Shown: positions 2 through 45,481 of the stretch, piece after piece
Numbering within the stretch: the stretch's first letter is position 1
How the letters are laid out: each line of letters opens with the position of its first letter
Assembly: GCA_903871775.1 (NCBI GenBank)
Contig: CAIQIA010000007.1
Location: 1-64,000 of the forward strand
DNA from: an uncultured cyanobacterium
Lineage (GTDB): Bacteria; Cyanobacteriota; Cyanobacteriia; PCC-6307; Cyanobiaceae
DNA length: 64,000 nt
Direction of reading: 5' to 3'
Notes under the pieces: model-generated
Databases searched by the model: none
Seen by the model: the letters and a program-made list of their open reading frames with translations, nothing else
Told to the model about the DNA's origin: nothing
Program-made: the position numbers and the translations under genes

Positions 2-1432
2 CAGCAGGGTGAGGCTGGAGCCGAGCTGGCGCTCTACACCCGCCTGAACCGCTATGCCCCGCTGCAGGATGTTGAACGGCGGCAGGCGGCGCTGAGCCGC
101 AGCAGCGGCGCCCCGCGTCAGCTGGTGGATCGCCTCACCGCCCTCACCGCCGAGCTGGCGAACGCCAATCTCGACGCGAACAAGCGCCAGCAGGCGCAGG
201 AGGAGAGCCAGCGGCTGCAGGCTGAGCTGTTCGACCAGCTGCCAGAGCTCAAGCCCCGGCTGGTGGAGCCCAAGGATGTGGCGCAGCGGCTGCCGGCCGA
301 TGGGGTGCTGGTGGAGTTGCAGCGCTACAGCCCCTACGACCCGAGCAAGCCCGAAGGCCAGCGCTTTGGCCCCGAGCGCTACCTGGCCCTGGTGCTGCAG
401 CGCAGCGGCACGATCCAGGCGGTGGATCTGGGCCCGGCCCAGCCGCTGGAGCAGGCGATCGCCACGGCACTGGGCGCCACCAAGGATCAAACGGCAGCCG
501 CAGCGCCGGCCTGGGCGGCGGTGGCCGACAAGGTGTTCGGCCCGTTGCAGGCGGCGATCGGCGGCCAGCGGCGCTGGTTGATCTCCCCCGATGGTGAACT
601 GCACCGGGTGCCGTTCAGCGCCCTGGCGGTGCTGGCAGGCAGCAGCCGGGTGCTGCCCGAGGGGGTGAGACTGCAGACGGTCGGCAGCGGCCGCGATCTG
701 CTCCCCTTGCCTGCCGCCGGTGCCACGGCCAGTGCTGCATCAACGGCGCTGGTGCTGGCGAATCCCACCACCCGCGGCTGGCCCGATCTGCCCGCTGCCG
801 AAGCAGAAGGGCTCACGGTGGCCGCTGCGTTGAAGGCGCCGCTGCAGCAGGGCCCGGCCGCCACGGTGGGCCTGCTGCAGCAGACGATCGGGCCACGGGT
901 GATCCATGTCGCCGGCCACGGCTATTTCGATCCCGAAGCCAAGGGCGATCCACTGCTCGCCAGTGGCCTGGTGCTGGCCGGTGCTGATGCCACGCGCCTC
1001 CCAAGCAAAACCCAATCAGCGCCTGGAGGGGTTGCCCAGCCCACTGCAGGGCAAGACGACGGCTACCTCAGCGCCAAGGAAGCCGCCCGGCTGCAGCTCG
1101 ATGGCACCCAGCTGGTGGTGCTCTCCGCCTGCGAAACAGGCCTGGGCAATCAGCGGACGGGAGAAGGCGTGTTCGGCCTGCAGCGGGCGCTCACGGTGGC
1201 CGGTGCCCGCGGCACCCTGCTCTCGCTCTGGAAGGTGCCCGATGCCGCCAGCCGCACCTTCATGGAACGCTTCTACGCCCTGCTCGGCCAGGGCATGGCC
1301 CCGAGCGCAGCGGTGCGGCAGGTGCAGGCCGAATTCCGCAGCCAGCCCACCATCGGTGGCAAGGCCAAACTCGCCAGCTGGAGTGATCCCTACTACTGGG
1401 CGGCCTGGCAGTACAGCGGCGTGCCGGAGTAG
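2..1432 (+). CDS. CHAT-domain peptidase, 5' end outside window
   Basis: The reading frame is open from base 2, so only the C-terminal 476 residues are visible. An N-terminal charged helical stretch is followed by a CHAT (caspase-like) domain. The expected catalytic pair is present: His in HVAGHGYF (about 905-928) and Cys in LSACETG (about 1121-1141). The typical tail GVFGLQRA...GARGTLLSLWKV follows. CHAT proteins are cysteine peptidases often joined to TPR repeats; any TPRs here would lie upstream of the window. It converges on a STAND NTPase gene. Function is unknown; stress-induced or defence-related proteolysis is an inference from the family. Confidence 0.85.
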   Translation, partial: QQGEAGAELALYTRLNRYAPLQDVERRQAALSRSSGAPRQLVDRLTALTAELANANLDANKRQQAQEESQRLQAELFDQLPELKPRLVEPKDVAQRLPADGVLVELQRYSPYDPSKPEGQRFGPERYLALVLQRSGTIQAVDLGPAQPLEQAIATALGATKDQTAAAAPAWAAVADKVFGPLQAAIGGQRRWLISPDGELHRVPFSALAVLAGSSRVLPEGVRLQTVGSGRDLLPLPAAGATASAASTALVLANPTTRGWPDLPAAEAEGLTVAAALKAPLQQGPAATVGLLQQTIGPRVIHVAGHGYFDPEAKGDPLLASGLVLAGADATRLPSKTQSAPGGVAQPTAGQDDGYLSAKEAARLQLDGTQLVVLSACETGLGNQRTGEGVFGLQRALTVAGARGTLLSLWKVPDAASRTFMERFYALLGQGMAPSAAVRQVQAEFRSQPTIGGKAKLASWSDPYYWAAWQYSGVPE

Positions 1433-35164: not shown

Positions 35165-36418
35165 ATGGCCCTGCCCCCGCTGCTGCTGATGCTGCTGCCC
35201 ACGGCGATCGTGCATGCCCACAACGAACCTTTCAGGGCCGTGGCCGCCGAGGTGTGCGGTTTCGCGCGGGATGGCTACAGCCATGTGCTCATCACCCCCG
35301 CCCAGGTGTCGAACCCCGGACCGGAATGGTGGCGGCGCTACCAGCCGGTGGATCTGCGGCGCATCGGCGGCCGCGGCAGTGCCGCCGACCTGCAGGCCCT
35401 CACCCGCCGGGCCCACGGCTGCGGCCTGCGGGTGATCGCCGATGTGGTGCTCAACCACATGAGCAGCGACGCCGCCCACCGTTCGCTGCAGTTTCCAGGG
35501 CTGACCCCGGCCGATTTTCATCCCCGCTGCACCATCAACTACAACGACGGCAACACGATCAGCGAGCGGCGCTGCTGGCTCAACGGCGACCTGCCCGACC
35601 TCGACCCGTCGCGACCCGCCGTCGCCCGGCTGCAGCGGGCCCAGCTGCAGCAGCTGCTGGCCCTGGGGGTGGATGGCTTCCGGTTCGATGCCGCCAAACA
35701 CATCGAACCCGCTGATCTGGCCGGCCTGGTCGCCCACGGGCAGCGGCTCAGCGGCGGCCGCAGCTTTTCGATGCTCGAAGTGATCGACGACCACGACACC
35801 CGGCCGGAGATGTACACCGCCATCGCGCCGGTCACCGATTACGTGCTCTGCGACACGTTGCGGCAGGCCTTCGCCTACGGCGGTCAGCTGAGCAGCCTGC
35901 GGCTGCCGCGGGCGATTGCTGATCGCCGCAGCGTCACCTTCGGCATCAGCCACGATTCAGATCCCGCCATCAATCCGGGCTTCGGCCGCTGCCAGCCCAG
36001 CGATCGCCACGACGGGGTGCTGGCCACCGCCTATGTGCTCGCCAGGGCCGACGGCACCCCCCTGGTGCTGGCGGCCGACCATCGGCGTTCGCCACTCGTG
36101 CGGGCCGGGGTGCGCTTCAGGGCCAACCTGCAGGCCCGCAGCCGCGCCGGAGCCGACACCCGCGAATGGGTGCCGGCCATCGGCGACCCCCAGACCCTGC
36201 TGCTGATGGAACGGGGCGGCGAGGGGTTCTTCGTGGTGAACAAAGCCGCCACGCCCCTCACGCTCTCTGCCGCCGAGCTGGCCGGCGGGCAGCTGCGGGG
36301 CCGCTACCGCAACCTGCGCGACGGCCGGCTGCTGCTGATCGGTGGCCGCGACGGCCAGACCCTCACGGTGCCCGCCCGGGACGGGCTCTATTTTCTCCGC
36401 CAGCAGGGCGCACCCTGA
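35165..36418 (+). CDS. Secreted alpha-amylase-family (GH13) protein
   Basis: 417 residues from ATG 35165, chosen for its signal peptide (LPPLLLMLLPTAIVHA). GH13 barrel motifs: VIADVVLNHMS (region I), DGFRFDAAKHIE with the nucleophile Asp (region II), SFSMLEVIDD with the acid/base Glu (region III), and FGISHDSD in place of the usual NHD (region IV). It is shorter than most alpha-amylases. It ends in RQQGAP, and the 3' 22 bases form the left half of the satellite's attL. The product may act on external or periplasmic glucans. Confidence 0.82.
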   Translation: MALPPLLLMLLPTAIVHAHNEPFRAVAAEVCGFARDGYSHVLITPAQVSNPGPEWWRRYQPVDLRRIGGRGSAADLQALTRRAHGCGLRVIADVVLNHMSSDAAHRSLQFPGLTPADFHPRCTINYNDGNTISERRCWLNGDLPDLDPSRPAVARLQRAQLQQLLALGVDGFRFDAAKHIEPADLAGLVAHGQRLSGGRSFSMLEVIDDHDTRPEMYTAIAPVTDYVLCDTLRQAFAYGGQLSSLRLPRAIADRRSVTFGISHDSDPAINPGFGRCQPSDRHDGVLATAYVLARADGTPLVLAADHRRSPLVRAGVRFRANLQARSRAGADTREWVPAIGDPQTLLLMERGGEGFFVVNKAATPLTLSAAELAGGQLRGRYRNLRDGRLLLIGGRDGQTLTVPARDGLYFLRQQGAP

Positions 36419-36441
36419 TCTACTGCTGCATCGGCAGGGGC
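36397..36441. repeat. attL of the integrated satellite
   Basis: 45 bp matching 45437-45481 with three differences (at 36409, 36419 and 36423). It covers the last codons and TGA of the amylase, one spacer base, and, on the other strand, a copy of the last codons and TAG of the small RHH-like gene now found at attR. All three differences are silent: GGC/GGT in the amylase end, the spacer base, and CAG/CAA in the opposite gene end. Confidence 0.88.
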
Positions 36442-36731: not shown

Positions 36732-38279
36732 GTGGAAATTTCTATTCTCTTGAATCTGACCTGGGCGTGCCTGCTTGTTATTTGTTTATTCAGAATTCGG
36801 GAAAAGAATCAACAGCTACTACACGAAAAGACAAATAACGCTCATCTTCTTGCTGACCTTGACAGATATAAGCGAAAACACAACTTGATAGACGATGCCC
36901 AGCGATACTTTGACAATAGAAAGTCAAGAGCTGACAGCTTGGCGGAATCAATTATTGAAGGAGCTAAGGCGAAGGCTGCAGACTTACGCGAAGAGGCAGA
37001 CAACATGCGCAAACATGCTCAAGAGCATGCACAGGCAACGGCCGAAGAAGCCAAAGCGAAGGCTGCTGATTACCGCGCAAAAGTAAACTACGAACTTTCG
37101 TCTGTCGAGGCATTGCTAAGTGACAAGAAAAAAGAGCTAGCAATTACAGAAAACGCATTACGCTTGAAGTCTGAAGATGCGCGCGCCTTAGATGTTGGAT
37201 ACTATGAGCCAGTCTACGAGTTTGCCGACCTCGAAAAATACCAAAATGAGCTTGACTACATACTTGGAGAGAGAAAAAGGCTTCTGGTTCTTGACCCTAA
37301 GAATCTTAAAGACAAAGGGAAAGCCGCATACTCCTACAAGAACATGTTCGAAACTAGTCCAACACCTTTAAAAACTGACAACAGGAGAATCGAGAGAGTC
37401 TTGAAGCTGATGCTCAGGGCATTTAACTACGAATGTGACTCTTATACGACTAGAGTGACGTACAAGAATATTAATATTATGGAAAGGAGGATCAGATCGG
37501 CTTTTGACCAAATAAATAAACTAGCCGAGCCGTGGCATTGCATGATCACAACGCAATACTTAGAGAATAGGATTGACGAGCTTCGTCTGGTCTATGAATA
37601 CGAAGAAGCAAAGCAGCGTGAGAAAGAGGAGCAGGCCCAGATAAGGGAGCAGATCAGAGAGGAGGAAAAAGCCGAAAGAGAAGCACAGAAAGCGCAAGAA
37701 GAAGCTGAGAAGGAAGAAGCAAAGTATCAGGAGATGCTAAATAAAGCAAGGCTAGATGCTCTGATTGCCAATGAAAAAGACAAGGAGAAACTCACTATGG
37801 AAATCACAGAGCTCCAAAGGCGCATCTCAGAAATAGAAGAGAGAAAACGAGCCATCAGCCAGGCAATGCTCACAAAGACTGGGCACGTCTATGTGATTAG
37901 CAATGTCGGCAGTTTTGGCGAAGAAATCTTTAAGATTGGCATGACAAGACGTCTTGACCCTATGGACAGGGTAAAAGAACTAGGGGATGCCTCTGTGCCA
38001 TTTCCATTTGATGTTCATGCGATGATTAGGTCAAGCAATGCACCAGCTCTTGAGTCAGCACTGCATGCCCATTTCAATGAAAGGCGGCTGAATCTAGAAA
38101 ACGAAAGAAAAGAGTTCTTCAAGGTATCAATTGATGAGATTAAGGCTGAACTTGAATTGCTCAAACAGACCTTGGGCATAGACGGCGAACTTCGACTTAC
38201 ACTTCTCGCTGAAGCGAAGCAATTTCGCCTTAGTGAGGCCAAGAGAAAGCATCTTGAGGCCAGCTATGAGTTAAGTTAA
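36732..38279 (+). CDS. DUF4041 / GIY-YIG (T5orf172-type) protein with N-terminal membrane helix
   Basis: 515 residues from GTG. Residues 4-22 are a membrane helix (LLNLTWACLLVICLF). A charged coiled coil (30-160) follows, then DUF4041 (about 165-300; YYEPVYEFADLEKYQNELDY), a second Glu/Lys/Arg-rich coiled coil (295-375) and a GIY-YIG-like domain of the T5orf172/Mug113 group (380-470; GHVYVISNVGSFGEEIFKIG then MTRRLDPMDRVKELGD). The gene is far AT-richer than its neighbours and on the opposite strand, so it is a separate acquisition. Similar proteins ride on prophages and islands. A defence or superinfection role is an inference. Confidence 0.85.
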   Translation: MEISILLNLTWACLLVICLFRIREKNQQLLHEKTNNAHLLADLDRYKRKHNLIDDAQRYFDNRKSRADSLAESIIEGAKAKAADLREEADNMRKHAQEHAQATAEEAKAKAADYRAKVNYELSSVEALLSDKKKELAITENALRLKSEDARALDVGYYEPVYEFADLEKYQNELDYILGERKRLLVLDPKNLKDKGKAAYSYKNMFETSPTPLKTDNRRIERVLKLMLRAFNYECDSYTTRVTYKNINIMERRIRSAFDQINKLAEPWHCMITTQYLENRIDELRLVYEYEEAKQREKEEQAQIREQIREEEKAEREAQKAQEEAEKEEAKYQEMLNKARLDALIANEKDKEKLTMEITELQRRISEIEERKRAISQAMLTKTGHVYVISNVGSFGEEIFKIGMTRRLDPMDRVKELGDASVPFPFDVHAMIRSSNAPALESALHAHFNERRLNLENERKEFFKVSIDEIKAELELLKQTLGIDGELRLTLLAEAKQFRLSEAKRKHLEASYELS

Positions 38280-38288
38280 TCACACCGG

Positions 38289-38855
38289 TCACTCTGCCTT
38301 CTCCATCGCCTCCAACCCTTCCGCGAGGTGCTCCAGGGCGCTGCGGATCTCCGTGGTCAGCAGTTCATACACTGCCGCCGCGCTGTCCATGCAGGCGATG
38401 TCACCGGCCAGCCTCGACGGCAGTGACAGGAGCCGGTCGCGGCAGATGCGGCCCGCCTGGGCGGCGGCACGCTGAACATCCTCGACCTTCACCAGAGTGC
38501 CGGCGAGCTGGGCGGCTTCCATCTCCGCCACCTGGGCGCGGGCAGCCTCCCGGCGGGCGGCGGAGACATGCCGATCGGGTGGGTCCGCTGCCTCGGACTG
38601 CGCTGCCTCGACTGGTGCTGCTGGTGCTGCTGGTGGCGGTGGTGCCCATGCCTGCATCGGCAGCCTGTACGGCTCGGCCTGGTGATGATGCCGGCGCGTC
38701 GTTGCCTTGAACGCTGCAGCGGCTCGCCCTGGGTCGGCGATGCTGCCATCTGAGAGCAGCAGCTCGGCAGGGATTCGGCCCGCCCGGATCGCGTTGGTGA
38801 CGGCGGCGCGGCTGACGCCTAGCAGCCTGGCAAGGTCGGCTCTGGTGCAGCTCAT
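38289..38855 (-). CDS. Nu1-like small terminase subunit
   Basis: 188 residues. An N-terminal winged HTH (RADLARLLGVSRAAVTNAIR, then GRIP) is joined by an Ala/Pro linker to the helical region ARREAARAQVAEMEAAQLAG, TLVKVEDVQRAAAQAGRICR, DRLLSLPSRLAGDIA and a final helix. This matches the lambda Nu1 / phage DNA-packaging TerS pattern. In a satellite it would steer a helper's large terminase to satellite DNA. The ATG overlaps the stop of the upstream gene by 4 bases. It is the last gene of the minus-strand run. Confidence 0.75.
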   Translation of the reverse strand: MSCTRADLARLLGVSRAAVTNAIRAGRIPAELLLSDGSIADPGRAAAAFKATTRRHHHQAEPYRLPMQAWAPPPPAAPAAPVEAAQSEAADPPDRHVSAARREAARAQVAEMEAAQLAGTLVKVEDVQRAAAQAGRICRDRLLSLPSRLAGDIACMDSAAAVYELLTTEIRSALEHLAEGLEAMEKAE

Positions 38856-39142
38856 TTCGTTAGCAATGTGATTTCTCGGATGACTTTTCTTGCTCCGTCA
38901 TAATCTCCGACTTCCAGGAGTTTCTGATAGAGCTGGCGGTAACTCAGCAGTGCCCAACCTCTTACCGCGTCGCGGTCCGGGCTGCCGGCGGCAGCTAGGT
39001 GCTGCTGCACCGTCAACATCACCTGATCGCTGCGGGCGCGGGGATACTCGGCCTTGAGGGCCTCTTCGATCTGGGTCTCGCTGGCGCCGGTGAGCAGCCA
39101 CTGAACCACGGCCGCTGGTGCTGGCTGTCGTCTGTCAGCCAT
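38852..39142 (-). CDS. Small helical protein in the packaging operon
   Basis: 96 residues, all helical by appearance (VVQWLLTGASETQIEEALKA, then LLSYRQLYQKLLEVGDYDGA then RKVIREITLLTK). I cannot assign a family. The first half looks like a small HTH or helical hairpin. It overlaps the PLD-like gene by 8 bases upstream and the TerS gene by 4 bases downstream, so it is probably part of packaging or capsid-hijacking functions. Confidence 0.6.
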   Translation of the reverse strand: MADRRQPAPAAVVQWLLTGASETQIEEALKAEYPRARSDQVMLTVQQHLAAAGSPDRDAVRGWALLSYRQLYQKLLEVGDYDGARKVIREITLLTK

Positions 39143-39806
39143 GGCGTTTCCACCATTCCGTCTGCTCGCCGTGGGTGGCGTCCTGCAGGCTGCGGGGCTG
39201 CCGTTCCCAGACGTCGAGCATGGCGTCGATCAGGAACCGTGTCAGAGCTGGATCGTGGCCAACCTCGAATGATTCCAGGCGGGGATTCTGGTTTAAGTTC
39301 ATGCTGCTACGCAGGGCCACCTTCCATTCGCGGTTTTCGAGTACCGCGAACTTTGCGTGGGTTCGTGTTACCCGCATTGAGTCGCGGCCGAACCGGTCGC
39401 GGATCGTTGCCACCAGTGACGGGCACCGGCGAACGAAGGTCGCGTCAACCAGCCATCGGCACGCCACAATCTCGCCGCTGTGCAGCAGCTCGGACATGGT
39501 TGTCACGTCGGTGCCGGCAGCGGTCCAGGTGCTGATCCACAGCGATGCCGGGCCCGTCTTCTCGAGGATTGCCCGGATCAGATCCACCAAGCTGAACTGC
39601 CCTTTTGTCAGGCCGTAGACGGCGGTGCCGTCGCGGTCCAGGTGCTCGACGGCTTCGGCGGCTGACTGCTGGCGCCGCAGGTCGAGGATCAGCCGCTTCG
39701 GGCTGAGAGGCACCCGCGTGGTTCCCTGCCGGATGACCGTTGGATCGGCTACCGGCGGGATCGGCGGCTGTAGCAGCGGGTTTTCGGTGTTAATTGATTT
39801 TTTCAT
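39135..39806 (-). CDS. PLD-like protein
   Basis: 223 residues with one HKD-like half-site: THAKFAVLENREWKVALRSS followed by MNLNQNPRLESFEVG, preceded by a beta-alpha region LWISTWTAAGTDVTTMSELL. Single-motif PLD-fold proteins dimerise and can be nucleases. Genes like this occur near terminases in several phages (from memory). It is first in a three-gene overlapping run with the 96-residue protein and TerS. Confidence 0.7.
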   Translation of the reverse strand: MKKSINTENPLLQPPIPPVADPTVIRQGTTRVPLSPKRLILDLRRQQSAAEAVEHLDRDGTAVYGLTKGQFSLVDLIRAILEKTGPASLWISTWTAAGTDVTTMSELLHSGEIVACRWLVDATFVRRCPSLVATIRDRFGRDSMRVTRTHAKFAVLENREWKVALRSSMNLNQNPRLESFEVGHDPALTRFLIDAMLDVWERQPRSLQDATHGEQTEWWKRHG

Positions 39807-39889: not shown

Positions 39890-40882
39890 TCATGCTGCCT
39901 TCCCGATCACAAACGTGCCACGATTGGCGACGCCGCTTGCTACCGTCTGCCAGATTGTTAGCCTTGTCTTACCACTAGCAGCCAGTGAGTAGGGATCTAC
40001 GATTAACTCCGGCGCTCCCCAGAATCCGATTGTCAGTTGTGACCAGTCGGCACAGATGAACCGACCGGCAGGAATGAACCGGCTGAACATCACCGGCAAG
40101 CCAACGAGGCTGAACGGCTTGGCGTTGCCGGTGTGGATCGTCGGCGTATCACCGTGTACCGCCTGCATCGCGGGGCTGAAGTCAGCGGCACTCATCAGCC
40201 ATGCCATTGACGACATGGCGCCATCGGCCAGCAGCACCGTTTCGACAATCGCGGCAGCCTCCGCGAGGGTTGGCACCTGGCCGCTGATCTGCTGCTGGGG
40301 CAGCTCCGGCGCGGTCAGCAGGCCGAGGGGTTGACCGTTTGCGCCGTTGCCTGCGAGAACGCCTTGCTCGACGGTCGCGGCCAGCGTTCGGCGCATCAGA
40401 TCCAACATTGTCGTCTCTGCCCCTGGAGTCTTGAGTAGCTGGCGGGACAGCACCATCTTTGTGTATGCGTCGGCTCCGCTGAGGCTGACGCCGCTGAATG
40501 TGACGGTCGTCTCGACTGCCTCCATGTCTTCGGCGGCGTAACCACCAGCGGCGATTGCCGGCACTCCGACCGCCAGACCTGAGCGGTTCCCGGTCAGCTC
40601 GACCGTCTGCGATCCGAGCTGGTTGAGCAGCAGCGTGGGGCGGAGGGCTTTGGTCAGGACTCGGATTGAATCCGCGAGGAAGTCCGAGCTTGTCAGCGTG
40701 CGGGTTGCCGGGCCGACTGGCAGGAATGTACCGCCGCGCAGTTCGGCACCATTCTCAGATGCTGTTTTGGCGATCTTTGCACTGAGGCTGATCTCACGCT
40801 GGCCAGCGTAGGGGTTGAAAATTGACGCGTCCTGCTCGTGGCGGGATCGGACGACATTGAGCAGTGAATAGGCCGAGGGCAT
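39890..40882 (-). CDS. HK97-fold major capsid protein
   Basis: 330 residues. The Phage_capsid pattern is clear: SSDFLADSIRVLTKALRPTL, ATVEQGVLAGNGANGQPLGL, AWLMSAADFSPAMQAVHGDT, FSLVGLPVMFSRFIPAGRFI and the P-domain end VANRGTFVIG. The N-terminal arm is short, with no long delta/scaffold domain, and no protease or scaffold gene is nearby. It would form shells using helper portal and tails, or remodel helper capsids. It starts downstream of an intrinsic terminator, so it has its own promoter. Confidence 0.85.
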   Translation of the reverse strand: MPSAYSLLNVVRSRHEQDASIFNPYAGQREISLSAKIAKTASENGAELRGGTFLPVGPATRTLTSSDFLADSIRVLTKALRPTLLLNQLGSQTVELTGNRSGLAVGVPAIAAGGYAAEDMEAVETTVTFSGVSLSGADAYTKMVLSRQLLKTPGAETTMLDLMRRTLAATVEQGVLAGNGANGQPLGLLTAPELPQQQISGQVPTLAEAAAIVETVLLADGAMSSMAWLMSAADFSPAMQAVHGDTPTIHTGNAKPFSLVGLPVMFSRFIPAGRFICADWSQLTIGFWGAPELIVDPYSLAASGKTRLTIWQTVASGVANRGTFVIGKAA

Positions 40883-40914: not shown

Positions 40915-40950
40915 AAAAAAAACCGCCGGAGGCCAATCCGGCGGTCTTTT
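40915..40950 (-). terminator. Intrinsic terminator between the helicase and capsid genes
   Basis: A perfect 9-bp stem (ACCGCCGGA at 40922-40930 with TCCGGCGGT at 40937-40945, 6-base loop) is followed on the minus strand by eight T residues (40915-40922 read in reverse). It lies 22 bases past the helicase stop and separates the replication module from the capsid/packaging module. On the plus strand a shorter T-run (40947-40950) follows the same stem. Confidence 0.85.
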
Positions 40951-40971: not shown

Positions 40972-42714
40972 TTAGCAGGTTGATTTGGCCCGGTTGGGTG
41001 CTGGCTGGTGTTGGCGTTTTGGCCAGTGCGGATCATCGGAGTCATCGGCATCGTCGGCGGCATGTGATCCGGCGGGCATGACTGCTGCGGGTGTCACAAC
41101 CTGCCTGGGTGTCACGACCTGGCACAACTCCTGTTGTTGAGGTTGTGACGGGCAGACCGATTGCGCTGCAACGGATGTCACAACCTGGCCCGGTGTCACA
41201 ACCTTTTTCTCCACCTTTTCCCTGCAACTCTCCCCCGGGCCTACTTGCTTTTTATCCGCACAAAGAGAGTCAATAGGTTGTGACGGTTGTGACGGGGTGG
41301 GCAGTCCGCCTGCGCTGCAGTCGGTTTGGCCCGTCACAACCTCTGTCTCTGTGGTTGTGACATGTTGGGACGGTTGTGACGCCCAGTAGTGGGCCCGGTG
41401 TCCTTCAACGCGCCGGTTCTTCTTCTCGAATCCAAGGGCTTTCAGCACCTTTGATAGTCGCATCTCGTCCTGGCGGGTGATCTGCTCCGATCGCTTCAGG
41501 CCGGCGGCGTAGAGCGCCTCCGCGCTGGTGAAGGGTGTTTCAGGGTCGTAGCTGATCGGCGTGGGGTCGCGGTCTGGGTCCCATCGGTGCATCGGCCGGC
41601 CGTTTATCCATGCCTGCACCATCTCGGCCCATGGGTCGCCAACGTTGAACCGTGTGTTCTGATCCGCTGCTGCGAGTTCGGCTTCACGGGGGAGCATCGG
41701 CAGCTCTCCGGCGCGATACGCTGCCAGAGCTGCTTTCCAGATGGCGGCGCGGTGCGTGGTGATGGCGTCGCGGTCCAGGGTTGCGGTGCCCGTTATCGGC
41801 ACAATCCAGAATCGACGCGAGCCGGTGTCATCTCTGAGGAAGTGATCCTCGTTGACGGTGGCGCAGAGTGCTGATGTGCGTGGGAACTGCTCTGCAGCCT
41901 TGCCGTATGGCACCCGGAACAGATCGATTGGTGTTGTGATTAGGTTTTTGAGTGCTCCTGCGTCTTTCTTCGATGTGATCGAATCGAGCTCTGCCAACTC
42001 CATGATCCATGACCGCTTGAGGACCAAGAGGAAGTCCTTTTCGTTGTCGGGATGGGATGAGGTGAACCACTCGTCTCCAGCCAGTGCCATCAATGCGGTG
42101 GACTTGCCGAGACCCTGGGCACCCTGCAGCACCAGGCAGTAATCGAGTTTGCAGCCGGGCTGCATCACTCGTGATACGGCGCCCACCAGCCACGACCGCA
42201 CCATCTGAGCGTGCAGCGGATCTGATGCACGAAAGAATCGAGGGCCCACCGTGTTCAGGTCGATAGGCTCGATCTCTGGGTTCTGCTCGATTTTCAGCAG
42301 CCAGTCTCTGACCGGGTGAACTGGTGTCTGCCGTGCGACGTGCAGGGTTGCTTGCTTGACCGCCTCCTGGCTGCATCGCCATCCCAACTGGTCGAGGATG
42401 ACCCAGGCCGAGTCCAGGTCGCTGCCGTTGATGGTGGTCCATCCATCACGGGTTTGGAGCTGCGGCATCAGTTCCATCTCGTTGAACCTGAGCGCGGCGC
42501 CTGATTCGGCGATGAGGTTGGCGAAGTGGCCGGGGCTCAGGGCTGATGGTTTGATGCCTTTATCTGTCATCCTCCATCCTTCCGGCATCTGTTCGATCAG
42601 CGCCTGAAACGATGCCGGGCGATCACTACCGGCAGTTGCCTGGGGTCTGGTGCTGAGGATCTCGTCCAGGGTTGGGAGCGCCGGCTGATCCGGTGCTGAC
42701 GTCGCTTTATCCAT
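40972..42714 (-). CDS. VapE-like (SF3-type) replication helicase
   Basis: 580 residues from ATG 42714, which overlaps the primase stop by 8 bases; the open frame upstream is a shadow of the primase gene. Virulence-associated E ATPase domain: Walker A VLQGAQGLGKSTALMALAG near residue 200, acidic WIMELAELDSITSKKDAGAL, LKNLITTPIDLFRVPYGKAA and DTGSRRFWIVPI. A winged-helix-like segment follows (EMRLSKVLKALGFEKKNRRV). Residues about 445-541 are low complexity (VVTPGQVVTS, SQPSQ) because they encode the iterons. It probably unwinds the satellite origin. Confidence 0.82.
   Translation of the reverse strand: MDKATSAPDQPALPTLDEILSTRPQATAGSDRPASFQALIEQMPEGWRMTDKGIKPSALSPGHFANLIAESGAALRFNEMELMPQLQTRDGWTTINGSDLDSAWVILDQLGWRCSQEAVKQATLHVARQTPVHPVRDWLLKIEQNPEIEPIDLNTVGPRFFRASDPLHAQMVRSWLVGAVSRVMQPGCKLDYCLVLQGAQGLGKSTALMALAGDEWFTSSHPDNEKDFLLVLKRSWIMELAELDSITSKKDAGALKNLITTPIDLFRVPYGKAAEQFPRTSALCATVNEDHFLRDDTGSRRFWIVPITGTATLDRDAITTHRAAIWKAALAAYRAGELPMLPREAELAAADQNTRFNVGDPWAEMVQAWINGRPMHRWDPDRDPTPISYDPETPFTSAEALYAAGLKRSEQITRQDEMRLSKVLKALGFEKKNRRVEGHRAHYWASQPSQHVTTTETEVVTGQTDCSAGGLPTPSQPSQPIDSLCADKKQVGPGESCREKVEKKVVTPGQVVTSVAAQSVCPSQPQQQELCQVVTPRQVVTPAAVMPAGSHAADDADDSDDPHWPKRQHQPAPNRAKSTC
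41093..41380. other. Candidate replication origin: GGTTGTGAC iterons inside the helicase gene
   Basis: Nine exact copies of GGTTGTGAC or its complement GTCACAACC: plus at 41141, 41276, 41285, 41353, 41372; minus at 41093, 41177, 41195, 41333. One near-copy lies at 41111 (GTCACGACC). They form two groups, 41093-41203 and 41276-41380, around a 72-base stretch (41204-41275) with more A+T than the flanks. By memory, SaPI origins have the same plan: two iteron sets flanking an AT-rich core next to rep. Here the sites lie in the 3' coding part of the helicase. Confidence 0.75.
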
Positions 42715-43591
42715 GTCTCCGCCGCTCCCTAGCGCGCCTGGTCCGGGCACCAAGCCAGGCCACTGAGTACGGCGCTTTTGTCGTTTCGGCCTTGCGCCAT
42801 TGCCGGCGGAACTCGTCGCCGCCCTTGTGCTTGCTGCTGGCACTGGTCCAGGCGAAGGCTTCCGCTTCGCTGAGGCCGGCGCGGCGCATGGCGACCACCG
42901 TTGCCCACCAGTCGCGCAGGCACAGACCTTCGGCGGGCCAGAACTGGAGGTAGTAGCGGCAGGCGTCGGCATCTGTCCACCTGACGCACCTGTGTGGTGC
43001 TGGCGGTGGTGCTGCTGGTCGCGGCGGTGCTGGTGCTGGCGGTGGCGCGATTGCCTGCAGCAGCCATTCGGGGGCGACGGCGAGGGCCGAATCCCATGGG
43101 CTGATGATCCACCGGTAACAGCCGGTTTCGGGATGCAAGCCACAGATCACCGATTGCTGGCCGGCCCAGCGGATCTCCAGCGCGGTGTGCTGCTGGGGCT
43201 TCAGCCGGTGTCGCCACTGAAGCGGCACCAGCAGCGCGATCTGGCGGCGGCCCGGCTTGCCGCTGCTCCACGTCCATGAGCGCGCGAGGTCAGCGGCGGT
43301 CCGGCCGGTGAGCGCGTGGAAGCCGCGATCACCGGCCGCCGGATCATCGGCCGGCGGGTCGAAGTCAACGGCCACCAGGCCGCTGTGCCCCAACCTCATG
43401 CCGATGGCGGGGGCGGCGGCCAGCTGCTCGGTGCTGAAGATTCGGCCCGGTTGCTGCCAACCTGCGTGCATGGGCCGCTTGTTGGCACCGACGGGGATGA
43501 GCTGGCTGCTGTGTTCACCGAGCGCGGCTCTGAGGGCGGCCGCGGCCTGGTACCTGCAGGGGAATTGTGTGATCATGGTGTTGGGTTTCAT
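42707..43591 (-). CDS. Primase-polymerase (AEP/Prim-Pol) protein
   Basis: 294 residues from ATG 43591; longer in-frame starts run across the hairpin and the HTH gene end. The N-terminal Prim-Pol domain has LIPVGANKRPMHAGWQQPGR, IGMRLGHSGLVAVDFDPPAD (catalytic acids) and WSSGKPGRRQIALLVPL (basic/His-site region). A Pro/Ala linker follows, then a PriCT-like domain (DADACRYYLQFWPAEGLCLR, DWWATVVAMRRAGLSEAEA). It would prime satellite replication together with the downstream helicase; the genes overlap by 8 bases. Confidence 0.78.
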   Translation of the reverse strand: MKPNTMITQFPCRYQAAAALRAALGEHSSQLIPVGANKRPMHAGWQQPGRIFSTEQLAAAPAIGMRLGHSGLVAVDFDPPADDPAAGDRGFHALTGRTAADLARSWTWSSGKPGRRQIALLVPLQWRHRLKPQQHTALEIRWAGQQSVICGLHPETGCYRWIISPWDSALAVAPEWLLQAIAPPPAPAPPRPAAPPPAPHRCVRWTDADACRYYLQFWPAEGLCLRDWWATVVAMRRAGLSEAEAFAWTSASSKHKGGDEFRRQWRKAETTKAPYSVAWLGARTRRARERRRHG

Positions 43592-43600
43592 TTGTTGAGT

Positions 43601-43633
43601 GCCCGGCGGGTTGCAGCTCGCCGGGCTTTTTTT
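43601..43633 (+). terminator. Intrinsic terminator pointing against the operon
   Basis: Stem GCCCGGCG (43601-43608) with CGCCGGGC (43619-43626), then seven T on the plus strand (43627-43633). It sits between the HTH gene stop and the primase start, both on the minus strand, so the T-run serves plus-strand (antisense) transcription only. For minus-strand RNA the same stem lacks a U-tract. Confidence 0.6.
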
Positions 43634-43914
43634 CAGCGCAGTACGCGCCTGGACCGCTGCGCCAGTGCAGCCCAGACGGCGTCGGGCGCCCACCTGAGGT
43701 TTGGCGCTCTGGTGCCTGCACCTGCGGCGCAGTAGTGCACACCTGGCTTGAGGACACCAGCACGGCGAAGCCGGCGCAATGTCGATTCACTGATGCTGAG
43801 CTCCTGCGTGAGCTCGGATGTGGTCGAGGGGAAATGCATCGGACTGAGTAGTGGGGCGGATGCACGCATCTGGCGCACACCGCTGACGCTAGACGGCTCG
43901 ATTTGTGGGTTCAA
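43633..43914 (-). CDS. Small HTH protein, excisionase/regulator-like
   Basis: 93 residues. A MerR/excisionase-type winged HTH: STTSELTQELSISESTLRRL, RRAGVLKPGVHYCAAGAG and LRWAPDAVWAALAQ. Small HTH proteins with the same 'STLRRLRRAGVLKPGVHY' pattern are common next to integrases in cyanobacterial islands (from memory). It may direct excision or repress the replication genes. A 162-bp gap separates it from the integrase. The start may be internal (Met16 or Met26). Confidence 0.7.
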   Translation of the reverse strand: MNPQIEPSSVSGVRQMRASAPLLSPMHFPSTTSELTQELSISESTLRRLRRAGVLKPGVHYCAAGAGTRAPNLRWAPDAVWAALAQRSRRVLR

Positions 43915-44076: not shown

Positions 44077-45285
44077 CTACCGATTCGCCACAAGTGCTTT
44101 GACCTTGGCCATCAGGCGAGGGCTGTCCAACCGTCGGCCGTATTGGCTGATGTGGATTTGTGGCGAGTGCCCCATCAATTCGGCTGATTCCCTGACGCTC
44201 AGACCTAGTTCAGTCCCAAGCCTGATTGCGAACGCGTGTCTCATTCCGTAGACGGTCAATTCCTCAGGAATCCCGGTCTCTACAGGCGGTCGCTGCCTGA
44301 GTGATCGCAACTGTCTGCCCATGGACTGAGCAGGTGTTTGTCCGTTGAGGACCATTCCCGGCAGCCCGTGGGTCTCCCACCGCTGCAGCAGCCCATGGCA
44401 ATCCGCGGGCCAGCCTGCGGGCGGCACGGCGGGCACGATGCGGGCTCCACTGCTGCCGCTGCTGCTCTTCTTGTTGCGGCTGATCATCGCTACCAGCAAG
44501 CCGTCCTGCACCTCTAGGTGCAGAGCCTGTAACTCCTTTGGCCGCAAGCCGAACGCAATGAGCAGATCCCATGCCACCAGGGCAGCGGGATCCATCTTGC
44601 TGCGCCTGATGCGCAGCCGCAGCTCCTCGATCTCTGCATCAGTGAAGCTGCGGACGCCTCCGGGCGGCGCCGCCGCCTTGCCGTTACCGCGCATCCCCTG
44701 AACTGACTCGGGCCAGGGCCAGCCGGCCTGGCGCCAGATCTGCCTGAACCGGTCGTGGGCCATCTGCCGGGATCGGCTTCCTGGCTGCCAGTGCCGCAGG
44801 GTTGTGGTCAGCAAGGTCTGATCGTCAGGCTGTGGGCCGGCGCCTGCGGTGCTGATCAGCCTCTCGATGAAGGGGCGGTACATCAGCTTCCAGGTTGTCG
44901 GGCTGACCTTCTCTGGCACGACGTGATTTCGCAGCAGCTCTGCTGCTCGCTTCAGCCCTGCGGGTGTGAGCCTGCTGTCGTCGCCGGCACTGGGCACACC
45001 ATCGGGATCGGGCCACTGCCATGCGCCGGCCCGCACCTGGTCGAACAGGTTGCAGGCTTCCATCAGTCCCGCCGTCGCTGTTGCTGGCCCTGGGGGCGTT
45101 GCCAGGGTGACGCTTCTGCGTTTCTGCGGTGCGTCGGCAGGCTCGTCGGGCCGTGGCGGCAGTTCGTCGCTGACGACGCGCAACCTGTCGCGCATCACCT
45201 CGACGGTCCAGCCGGGCCGGCCCTGGCGGTGCCGCTTGAAGCTCCTGGAAAGGTCGGCCAGCCACTGCGGGCGGGTCAGGGCCAT
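44077..45285 (-). CDS. Tyrosine integrase of the satellite
   Basis: 402 residues from ATG 45285 (MALTRPQWLADLSRSFKRHR); an upstream in-frame ATG at 45453 would run into attR. Tyrosine recombinase boxes: IAFGLRPKELQALHLE (Arg I), ISRNKKSSSG (Lys), VYGMRHAFAIRLG (Arg II; Tyr in place of the first His of HxxR), LMGHSPQIHISQYGRRLDS (His and nucleophile Tyr). It sits 152 bases from attR and reads away from it, the usual position for site-specific integration. Confidence 0.92.
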   Translation of the reverse strand: MALTRPQWLADLSRSFKRHRQGRPGWTVEVMRDRLRVVSDELPPRPDEPADAPQKRRSVTLATPPGPATATAGLMEACNLFDQVRAGAWQWPDPDGVPSAGDDSRLTPAGLKRAAELLRNHVVPEKVSPTTWKLMYRPFIERLISTAGAGPQPDDQTLLTTTLRHWQPGSRSRQMAHDRFRQIWRQAGWPWPESVQGMRGNGKAAAPPGGVRSFTDAEIEELRLRIRRSKMDPAALVAWDLLIAFGLRPKELQALHLEVQDGLLVAMISRNKKSSSGSSGARIVPAVPPAGWPADCHGLLQRWETHGLPGMVLNGQTPAQSMGRQLRSLRQRPPVETGIPEELTVYGMRHAFAIRLGTELGLSVRESAELMGHSPQIHISQYGRRLDSPRLMAKVKALVANR

Positions 45286-45436
45286 GGGGCTGCTGCGTGG
45301 TTTCTGCGTGGAATCCTGGCAGACCTTGGCGACTTCCGCTTGTTCTTGGGCCTCTCCGACTGATGATCGTCTGGCTGAGACCTCAGTCTGTGACAGCGTT
45401 AGAACGCCTGCAGGGCCTGGAATCAGGGGATCCGAG

Positions 45437-45481
45437 CCGCCAGCAGGGTGCACCCTGAACTATTGCTGCATCGGCAGGGGC
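45437..45481. repeat. attR of the integrated satellite
   Basis: 42/45 identical to attL. The right half is the genuine 3' end of the small gene at 45460-45714 (ending PLPMQQ). The left half carries a copy of the amylase end (RQQGAP then TGA) with one synonymous change. The core therefore restores both convergent genes after integration. Confidence 0.88.

Follow-up and report, generated by a model that had tools for sequence, protein, structure and literature searches.

A predicted iteron origin inside the reading frame of a VapE-like initiator gene in a cyanobacterial phage-satellite-like island

The window analysed here is a stretch of 64,000 nucleotides from an uncultured cyanobacterium of the family Cyanobiaceae (assembly GCA_903871775.1, contig CAIQIA010000007.1, positions 1 to 64,000). 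It carries an integrated, phage-satellite-like island of about 9 kb with a gene for a VapE-like helicase of 580 aa, the presumed replication initiator (40972..42714, minus strand; PF05272 2.2e-60; DNA helicase phrog_1313 5.5e-68). An array of iterons was found at 41093..41380, in frame with the VapE open reading frame (ORF) 40972-42714(-), where the first-pass annotation of this DNA had placed it, in the coding 3′ end of the helicase gene. Our comparisons made it highly likely that this array is the replication origin of the island, with VapE as the initiator, and that it lies inside the reading frame of that initiator. The array is very probably an iteron origin of the type carried by phage-inducible chromosomal islands (PICIs) and Staphylococcus aureus pathogenicity islands (SaPIs), because arrays recur at the vapE 3′ end, including on plasmids, because the fold predicted for VapE matches that of PriRep1, and because the repeat word tracks the C-terminal domain of VapE.

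The array consists of nine exact copies of GGTTGTGAC and one single-mismatch copy (41111-41119, minus strand), and the recount over the 288 bases gave the same numbers as the first-pass annotation. Five exact copies start on the plus strand (41141, 41276, 41285, 41353, and 41372) and four on the minus strand (41093, 41177, 41195, and 41333). By arithmetic, chance would again give about 0.002 occurrences of any one 9-mer in 288 bases, both strands counted. The 8-mer of the array was present in 9 copies, whereas the highest count was 3 among 60 shuffles of the 3′ region and again 3 among 40, and 0 of 100 shuffles reached the observed count at k=7 or k=8. Outside 41093-41380, the window held no further exact copy and eight further single-mismatch matches. 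The whole genome (2,573,108 bases, 27 contigs) contained 16 exact copies, 9 within the array and 7 elsewhere; the word was thus not common genome-wide, in line with the count proposed as a check in the first-pass annotation. The two clusters of iterons flank an AT-richer core at 41204..41275, the presumed melting site, which is purine-rich (0.68) on the gene strand. On one side of it are the inner iterons at 41177..41203 (minus strand; copies at 41177 and 41195, 18 bp apart), and on the other side is the inner tandem pair at 41276..41293 (plus strand, 9 bp apart). A+T made up 51% of the 74 bp that separate the innermost 8-mer words, compared with 40% of the flanking array and 36% of the 16-kb sub-region, in keeping with the roughly half A+T described before. 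The peptide encoded by the array is of low complexity, with SQPSQP and VVTP.

A further motif of about 20 nt, motif B (gene strand TGCAGCGCAATCGGTCT), which often forms a small inverted repeat, was observed on both sides of the core. Its two copies, at 41150..41170 and 41299..41319 (both minus strand, the second 86% like the first), each lie between opposite iterons. A scan allowing 4 mismatches found two copies each at the arrays of the window, L059, and L060, and one in L053; motif B was absent from the other 24 loci scanned and was rejected as a general origin element. By eye, three copies were seen in L068, whose iteron differs.

VapE relatives were present in 75 of 400 genomes of the window's family, the window's own genome counted. 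The first survey covered 50 loci of that family and the window, in which clustered identical 7- or 8-mers were sought at the vapE 3′ end. The words of the picocyanobacterial loci varied (GGTTGTGAC, GAGGTTGCC, AGGTTGAGA, TCTGGTCC, AGGTGTGGC, GTTGCGCC, ATCCGAGG, and others), and the order of orientations was similar in many of them. No relative turned up among viral contigs when the whole VapE was used as a single query protein, but alignment queries did find relatives there. In the strict test, a locus was significant if its repeat count exceeded that of all dinucleotide shuffles at both k=7 and k=8. With 100 shuffles, 47 of 125 loci were significant, namely 16 of the 49 from genomes and 31 of the 76 from viral contigs. 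A uniform wider run with 60 shuffles, for which 211 loci were supplied, 8 were dropped as too short and one of those tested had a masked tail, gave 98 of 203 significant loci at the vapE 3′ end. Where relatives kept an array, its spacing was related but its word differed, as did the peptide encoded there; kept spacing with a drifting peptide is the pattern that the first-pass annotation had proposed to look for. In the near pair L077/L078, the iteron columns were identical at 52 of 54 positions and the other columns at 268 of 370, and the L078 ORF meets a stop codon inside the array, which is nonetheless kept. Two side observations were made on these repeats. Many iteron words have a common AGGT[T/A/G]G half while the other half varies, with exceptions that include TAGGAACA, TCTGGTCC, CCTCGGAT, and GGTCGGCACG. 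L065 is a broken vapE copy, 95% identical to L063 in the aligned region, the frame of which ends with TAA inside an iteron.

The arrays on plasmids are the strongest sequence evidence for origin function, because small plasmids need an origin of their own. VapE was found by tblastn on 109 plasmid records, and in all seven records examined whole the strongest repeat cluster was at the vapE 3′ end (one of the clusters is weak and two are near-identical). In the Microcystis plasmid of 3.1 kb, which has two annotated genes, the best cluster consisted of nine copies of AGGTAGGG just past vapE, with a null maximum of 3. The 5.8- and 6.3-kb plasmids of Cyanobacterium aponinum, whose vapE genes are near-identical, carry GGTTGAGTA inside the annotated vapE coding sequence in a layout like that of the window. 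Copies after the vapE stop were found in the plasmids of Stutzerimonas (9.9 kb, n=9), Apilactobacillus (14.8 kb, n=12), and E. coli (9.1 kb, n=11), and the weak cluster was that of the 4.3-kb Gluconobacter plasmid, past vapE, with 5 copies against a null maximum of 4 at k=7 and no such excess at k=9. Among the plasmids read in part, three from Nostoc and one of 17 kb from Microcystis carry arrays inside the vapE coding sequence.

Structural comparison pointed to the protein that may read these repeats. The AlphaFold model of VapE residues 1-445 had a mean pLDDT of 87.2 and matched PriRep1 with double-stranded DNA (7pds), which we take to be a SaPI protein, with a Z of 27.0 over 388 aligned residues (range 43..445); its match to the SaPI5 primase-helicase (7ola) had a Z of 12.8. 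The match to 7pds extends through the C-terminal region of about residues 395-444 (41383..41532, minus strand), the presumed iteron reader, which we call winged-helix-like from our own reading of the helices and the strand pair in the predicted model. The iteron array codes for the low-complexity linker that follows this region (about residues 445-541; 41092..41382, minus strand), and beyond the array comes a C-terminal end of 39 residues (40975..41091, minus strand). By sequence and predicted fold, the VapE of the window is classed as a helicase initiator with a C-terminal DNA-reading domain. The similarity of iteron words followed the identity of the C-terminal domain when ATPase identity was controlled (partial r 0.185, p 0.004; 25 loci, up to two loci per word), and the reverse control, word against ATPase with the C-terminal domain taken out, gave no association (p 0.26). 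Identities were also compared for those pairs with a match in the array or the post-array segment. In the pairs with a changed word, the core and C-terminal domain identities were 74% and 40% (L221/L223), 61% and 41% (L206/L221), 78% and 61% (L218/L219), and 94%, over 141 residues, and 70% (L223/L246). In the pairs with the same word they were 92% and 95% (L220/L243) and 54% and 56% (window/L060). At the level of sequence, the presumed DNA reader and the repeat word were thus shown to change together across VapE elements.

Analysis of the layout showed that the arrays also have distances in common. The layout could be anchored on the core in 36 of the 47 significant arrays, and among 16 word representatives 200 site pairs agreed in place and orientation, against a mean of 105.9 and a maximum of 147 in 2000 randomisations. 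For the distal sites alone, 115 pairs agreed, where randomisation gave a mean of 79.2 and at most 125 (p 0.001). In a wider set with one array per word per set (48 loci, giving 96 halves), 44 halves had a site of opposite orientation at 50-60 bp from the inner one, with a null mean of 10.7 and maximum of 21. Same-facing sites clustered at 9-11, 18-20, 72-77, and 84-86 bp, and just 6 were at 21-47. Among 63 dereplicated arrays, the largest gap was between opposite orientations in 54 and measured 55-135 bp in 48, and its A+T was above that of the flanks in 54. The array of Marinobacter phage PS3 has a different word but the same distances as five right-half sites of the window (0, 18, 53, 74, and 84 bp), a match that was picked from many comparisons, in which two of the five window sites are single-mismatch copies and a sixth site is at 102. 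In four viral contigs (L099, L120, L126, and L157), the origin module appeared mirror-flipped with respect to vapE, with a pyrimidine-rich core on the gene strand.

Several results weigh against an origin of this kind, or against its generality. Only 98 of the 203 loci overall, and 16 of the 48 picocyanobacterial loci, passed the strict test. L059, which has the highest identity to the window VapE, failed it in both runs (its array has four exact copies, mixed GTCACAA/GCCACAA), and in cyanophage S-2L the vapE 3′ end lacks an array. The array begins 302 bp past the vapE stop in the E. coli plasmid and 384 bp past it in one Pseudomonas phage, in both cases beyond a small annotated ORF. The Phormidium plasmid, read in part, has no array at the vapE end, and its best cluster is 1.1 kb beyond. 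The gene tables of PLSDB are incomplete, and vapE is the sole initiator of these plasmids by presumption. As for the layout, the opposite site at 50-60 bp was present in under half of the halves (44/96). Most coding arrays of the other cyanobacterial genomes, only three loci of which entered the 96-half test, fitted the layout poorly; in L221, L223, L224, L226, L234, and L246 the largest inner gap was 28-48 bp. The largest gap had no opposite orientations on its flanks in L211, L226, L247, and L260, and the array of L247 is a 21-bp tandem repeat. The rule by which the core was chosen favours opposite flanks in the site-pair and 96-half tests, though not in the 63-array test, and related words in the viral set are not independent.

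Two other functions of the repeats were considered, both improbable. The repeats could be operators, bound by VapE or by the small helix-turn-helix (HTH) protein of the island and controlling transcription of the downstream capsid and terminase genes. The array does sit between the replication and capsid genes, which are separated by a terminator-like inverted repeat (40917-40950), but small plasmids without an annotated capsid gene (L206, L207, and L213) still carry an array at the vapE 3′ end, and the two-sided layout around an AT-richer core suits an origin better. The same repeats could nevertheless hold a double role, as origin and operator. It is about as improbable that the array serves partition, packaging, or incompatibility and is recognised by a protein other than VapE. 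Iteron-like arrays can act as partition sites, and the island encodes a terminase small subunit; however, the words track the C-terminal domain of VapE better than its ATPase, and L207, a plasmid for which just two genes are annotated, has an array along with vapE.

The position of the array relative to the vapE stop differed among hosts. We called an array coding if it was inside the vapE frame; arrays beyond the stop can nonetheless overlap a further annotated ORF, as part of the array does in APSE-1 and in the Kurthia plasmid. Among the 16 significant picocyanobacterial loci (of 48), 8 were fully coding, 5 were after the stop, and 3 were set aside as mixed (L069, L075, and L078, called coding by the script with tails of just 0-19 residues, and kept outside the 23 coding arrays). 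The other cyanobacterial genomes had 11 significant loci of 17, 9 of them coding, the cyanobacterial plasmids 7 of 8, 6 of them coding, and the cyanophages 1 of 2, with none coding. Among the named non-cyanobacterial plasmids and phages, 16 records hand-picked from 622 phage and 109 plasmid records, 13 were significant and none was coding, and of the viral contigs of unknown host 50 of 112 were significant and 1 was coding. Coding arrays thus made up 23 of 35 with cyanobacterial hosts or phage against 0 of 13 with named other hosts (Fisher p 3.3e-5), or 20 of 31 against 0 of 13 after dereplication (p 5.0e-5), in which, for example, L213 repeats L206 and L218 repeats L243. VapE tails of at least 100 residues were found in 29 of 75 cyanobacterial rows, none of the 16 named others, and 1 of the 112 viral contigs; the fully coding picocyanobacterial tails were 122-186 residues long, and in L041, L068, and L070 the ORF stops 4-6 residues past the winged-helix-like region, with the array after the stop. 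The coding state was scattered on a tree of 66 VapE rows, which was made by a quick method and has several long branches. These sequences suggest that many cyanobacterial VapE elements have the origin inside the initiator frame, and that the examined relatives from other hosts have the array after the vapE stop. The coding location noticed at first holds in the window but is not general, since many relatives have the array after the stop; an array is detectable in 98 of 203 loci.

In addition to its position, the openness of the frame was analysed, with the iterons held fixed and the remainder shuffled 400 times per row. Among these 400 shuffles, the window retained an open frame as far as its stop 24 times, the seven other picocyanobacterial rows did so 4-60 times, and the 15 rows from other cyanobacteria and plasmids 0 or 1 times. 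An open frame through just the array was easier to retain (up to 231 of 400, in L060). On the evidence of these shuffles, selection acts on the frame of the coding arrays, and the signal is clearest outside the GC-rich picocyanobacteria. Because the frame stays open more often than expected by chance, the tail would not be merely a by-product of the DNA, which amends the earlier suggestion that DNA function dictates the low-complexity peptide. The C-terminal segments after the array are of several kinds and are conserved in some pairs; between L206 and L221 the segment was 51% identical over 68 residues, while the peptides encoded by the arrays do not align. A Pfam scan of 10 such segments gave nothing above the curated cut-off. 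That the peptide itself is selected as a low-complexity protein repeat and the DNA repeats follow from it is very improbable, and was rejected as the cause of the array: the frame is open beyond chance in the coding cases, which speaks for it, but the copies are in both orientations, many relatives carry such an array past the vapE stop, the encoded peptide diverges most, and L078 keeps its array after the frame closes.

If the array is an origin, the winged-helix-like region of VapE would read the iterons, with helicase rings assembling to either side of the AT-richer core. Melting of this core would follow, the helicase would load and unwind, and the Prim-Pol encoded just upstream would prime. 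The origin DNA would double as the code for the low-complexity linker that joins the winged helix to the C-terminal segment, for which some role is presumed. A broader proposal, which we regard as possible but somewhat short of an even chance, joins a spacing rule that crosses phyla with the repeated enclosure of the origin in cyanobacterial initiator frames, a convergence on the arrangement of lambda O. In it, tandem sites would be about 9 and 18 bp apart, few would be at 21-47, the opposite site would be at about 55, and same-facing sites at 72-77 and 84-86; the word would change with the C-terminal reader; and the initiator would have three parts, namely the reader, the origin-coding linker, and the C-terminal segment. 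Its odds were lowered because the 50-60-bp site was present in 44 of 96 halves and because most coding arrays of the other cyanobacterial genomes fitted poorly. If it is true, one gene would be a self-contained replicon. The predicted origin offers a testable minimal replicon for cyanobacterial satellites and small plasmids, and shared spacing with changing words is a route to the origins of VapE elements without knowledge of the repeat. The co-changing DNA reader and repeats form a natural set for studying the evolution of initiator specificity, and the host-linked choice between an in-frame and an after-frame origin raises the question of why cyanobacterial elements translate through it.

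The island itself is bounded by 45-nt direct repeats 9.04 kb apart, the presumed attachment-site repeats, one at 45437..45481, which overlaps the start of the integrase gene, and one at the far end (36397..36441, 93% like the first). On the minus strand are the integrase (44077..45453; phrog_1 integrase 5.5e-9, no Pfam match), the small HTH protein (43633..43914; AlpA/excisionase-like as a guess, HTH_17 4.8e-4, under the curated cut-off, no PHROG), and the Prim-Pol with a bifunctional primase/polymerase N-terminal domain (42707..43693; PF09250 2.4e-12), whose gene overlaps the vapE start. Beyond vapE on the same strand are an HK97-type major capsid protein (39890..40882; PF05065 9.4e-21, phrog_617 3.5e-28), an endonuclease-like protein (39135..39806; phrog_16945 5.1e-41), and the terminase small subunit (38289..38855; phrog_57 1.8e-22). 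A gene with DUF4041 and T5orf172/MUG113 domains (36732..38279, plus strand; phrog_1847, unknown function) is also within the island, on the strand opposite to the other named island genes. The inverted repeat between vapE and the capsid gene has A and T runs, with arms at 40917-40930 and 40937-40950, and resembles a two-way terminator. The island thus has the integrase and attachment-site repeats of a PICI, and a Prim-Pol and VapE replication module. Capsid-forming PICIs have their own capsid, portal, and terminases; of this set the capsid and the small terminase were found, and neither portal nor large terminase was among the 10 proteins scanned against PHROG.

As excerpted, the origins of PICIs have two iteron sets flanking an AT-rich region immediately 3′ to rep (PMC6092414), and the origin of SaPIs is read by the C-terminal domain of Rep (PMC7581432). 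The presumed origin of the window is like these in its two iteron sets around an AT-richer region at the 3′ end of an initiator gene, a likeness that the first-pass annotation had pointed out and that holds for these sequence features, and its initiator is related by fold to PriRep1 (7pds) and the SaPI5 primase-helicase (7ola). It has the same place relative to the C-terminal domain, but it is in frame rather than past the stop, that is, inside the initiator coding sequence and not immediately 3′ of rep as in the available description of PICIs. The host, a cyanobacterium, and the repeat words are also different. In SCCmec, the C-terminal domain of the Cch2 helicase, which has a primase partner, binds short repeats downstream of its gene, in the part of the account available (PMC7581432); these are three iterons in intergenic DNA, whereas the array of the window is in coding DNA. 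Close counterparts are also the cyanobacterial VapE plasmids pAL20115c, pAL20118c, Nostoc pTCL26-01_E, and pNsp_l, which also have the array inside the vapE coding tail but carry other iteron words and are plasmids, not islands; the gene tables of these four contain no origin annotation. A literature search, in which coverage of subscription journals was limited, found no report of a VapE or PICI origin inside coding sequence or of a cyanobacterial link. The VapE of the window can presumably also be likened to the alpha protein of the phage-plasmid P4, a satellite primase-helicase initiator with its own origin (ori, crr). P4 has a second origin inside the alpha gene. Both the type of origin and an origin inside an initiator gene, of which lambda is the precedent, are already known. 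The lambda origin is inside gene O and, in the excerpt of its description, has iterons and an A-T rich, strand-asymmetric stretch (PMC4488673), and the presumed origin of the window likewise lies inside the initiator ORF with iterons and an AT-richer, strand-asymmetric stretch. Its initiator, VapE, is unrelated to the O protein, and while lambda, as described there, has its four 19-bp iterons all to one side of the AT-rich stretch, the window has iterons on both sides and in both orientations.
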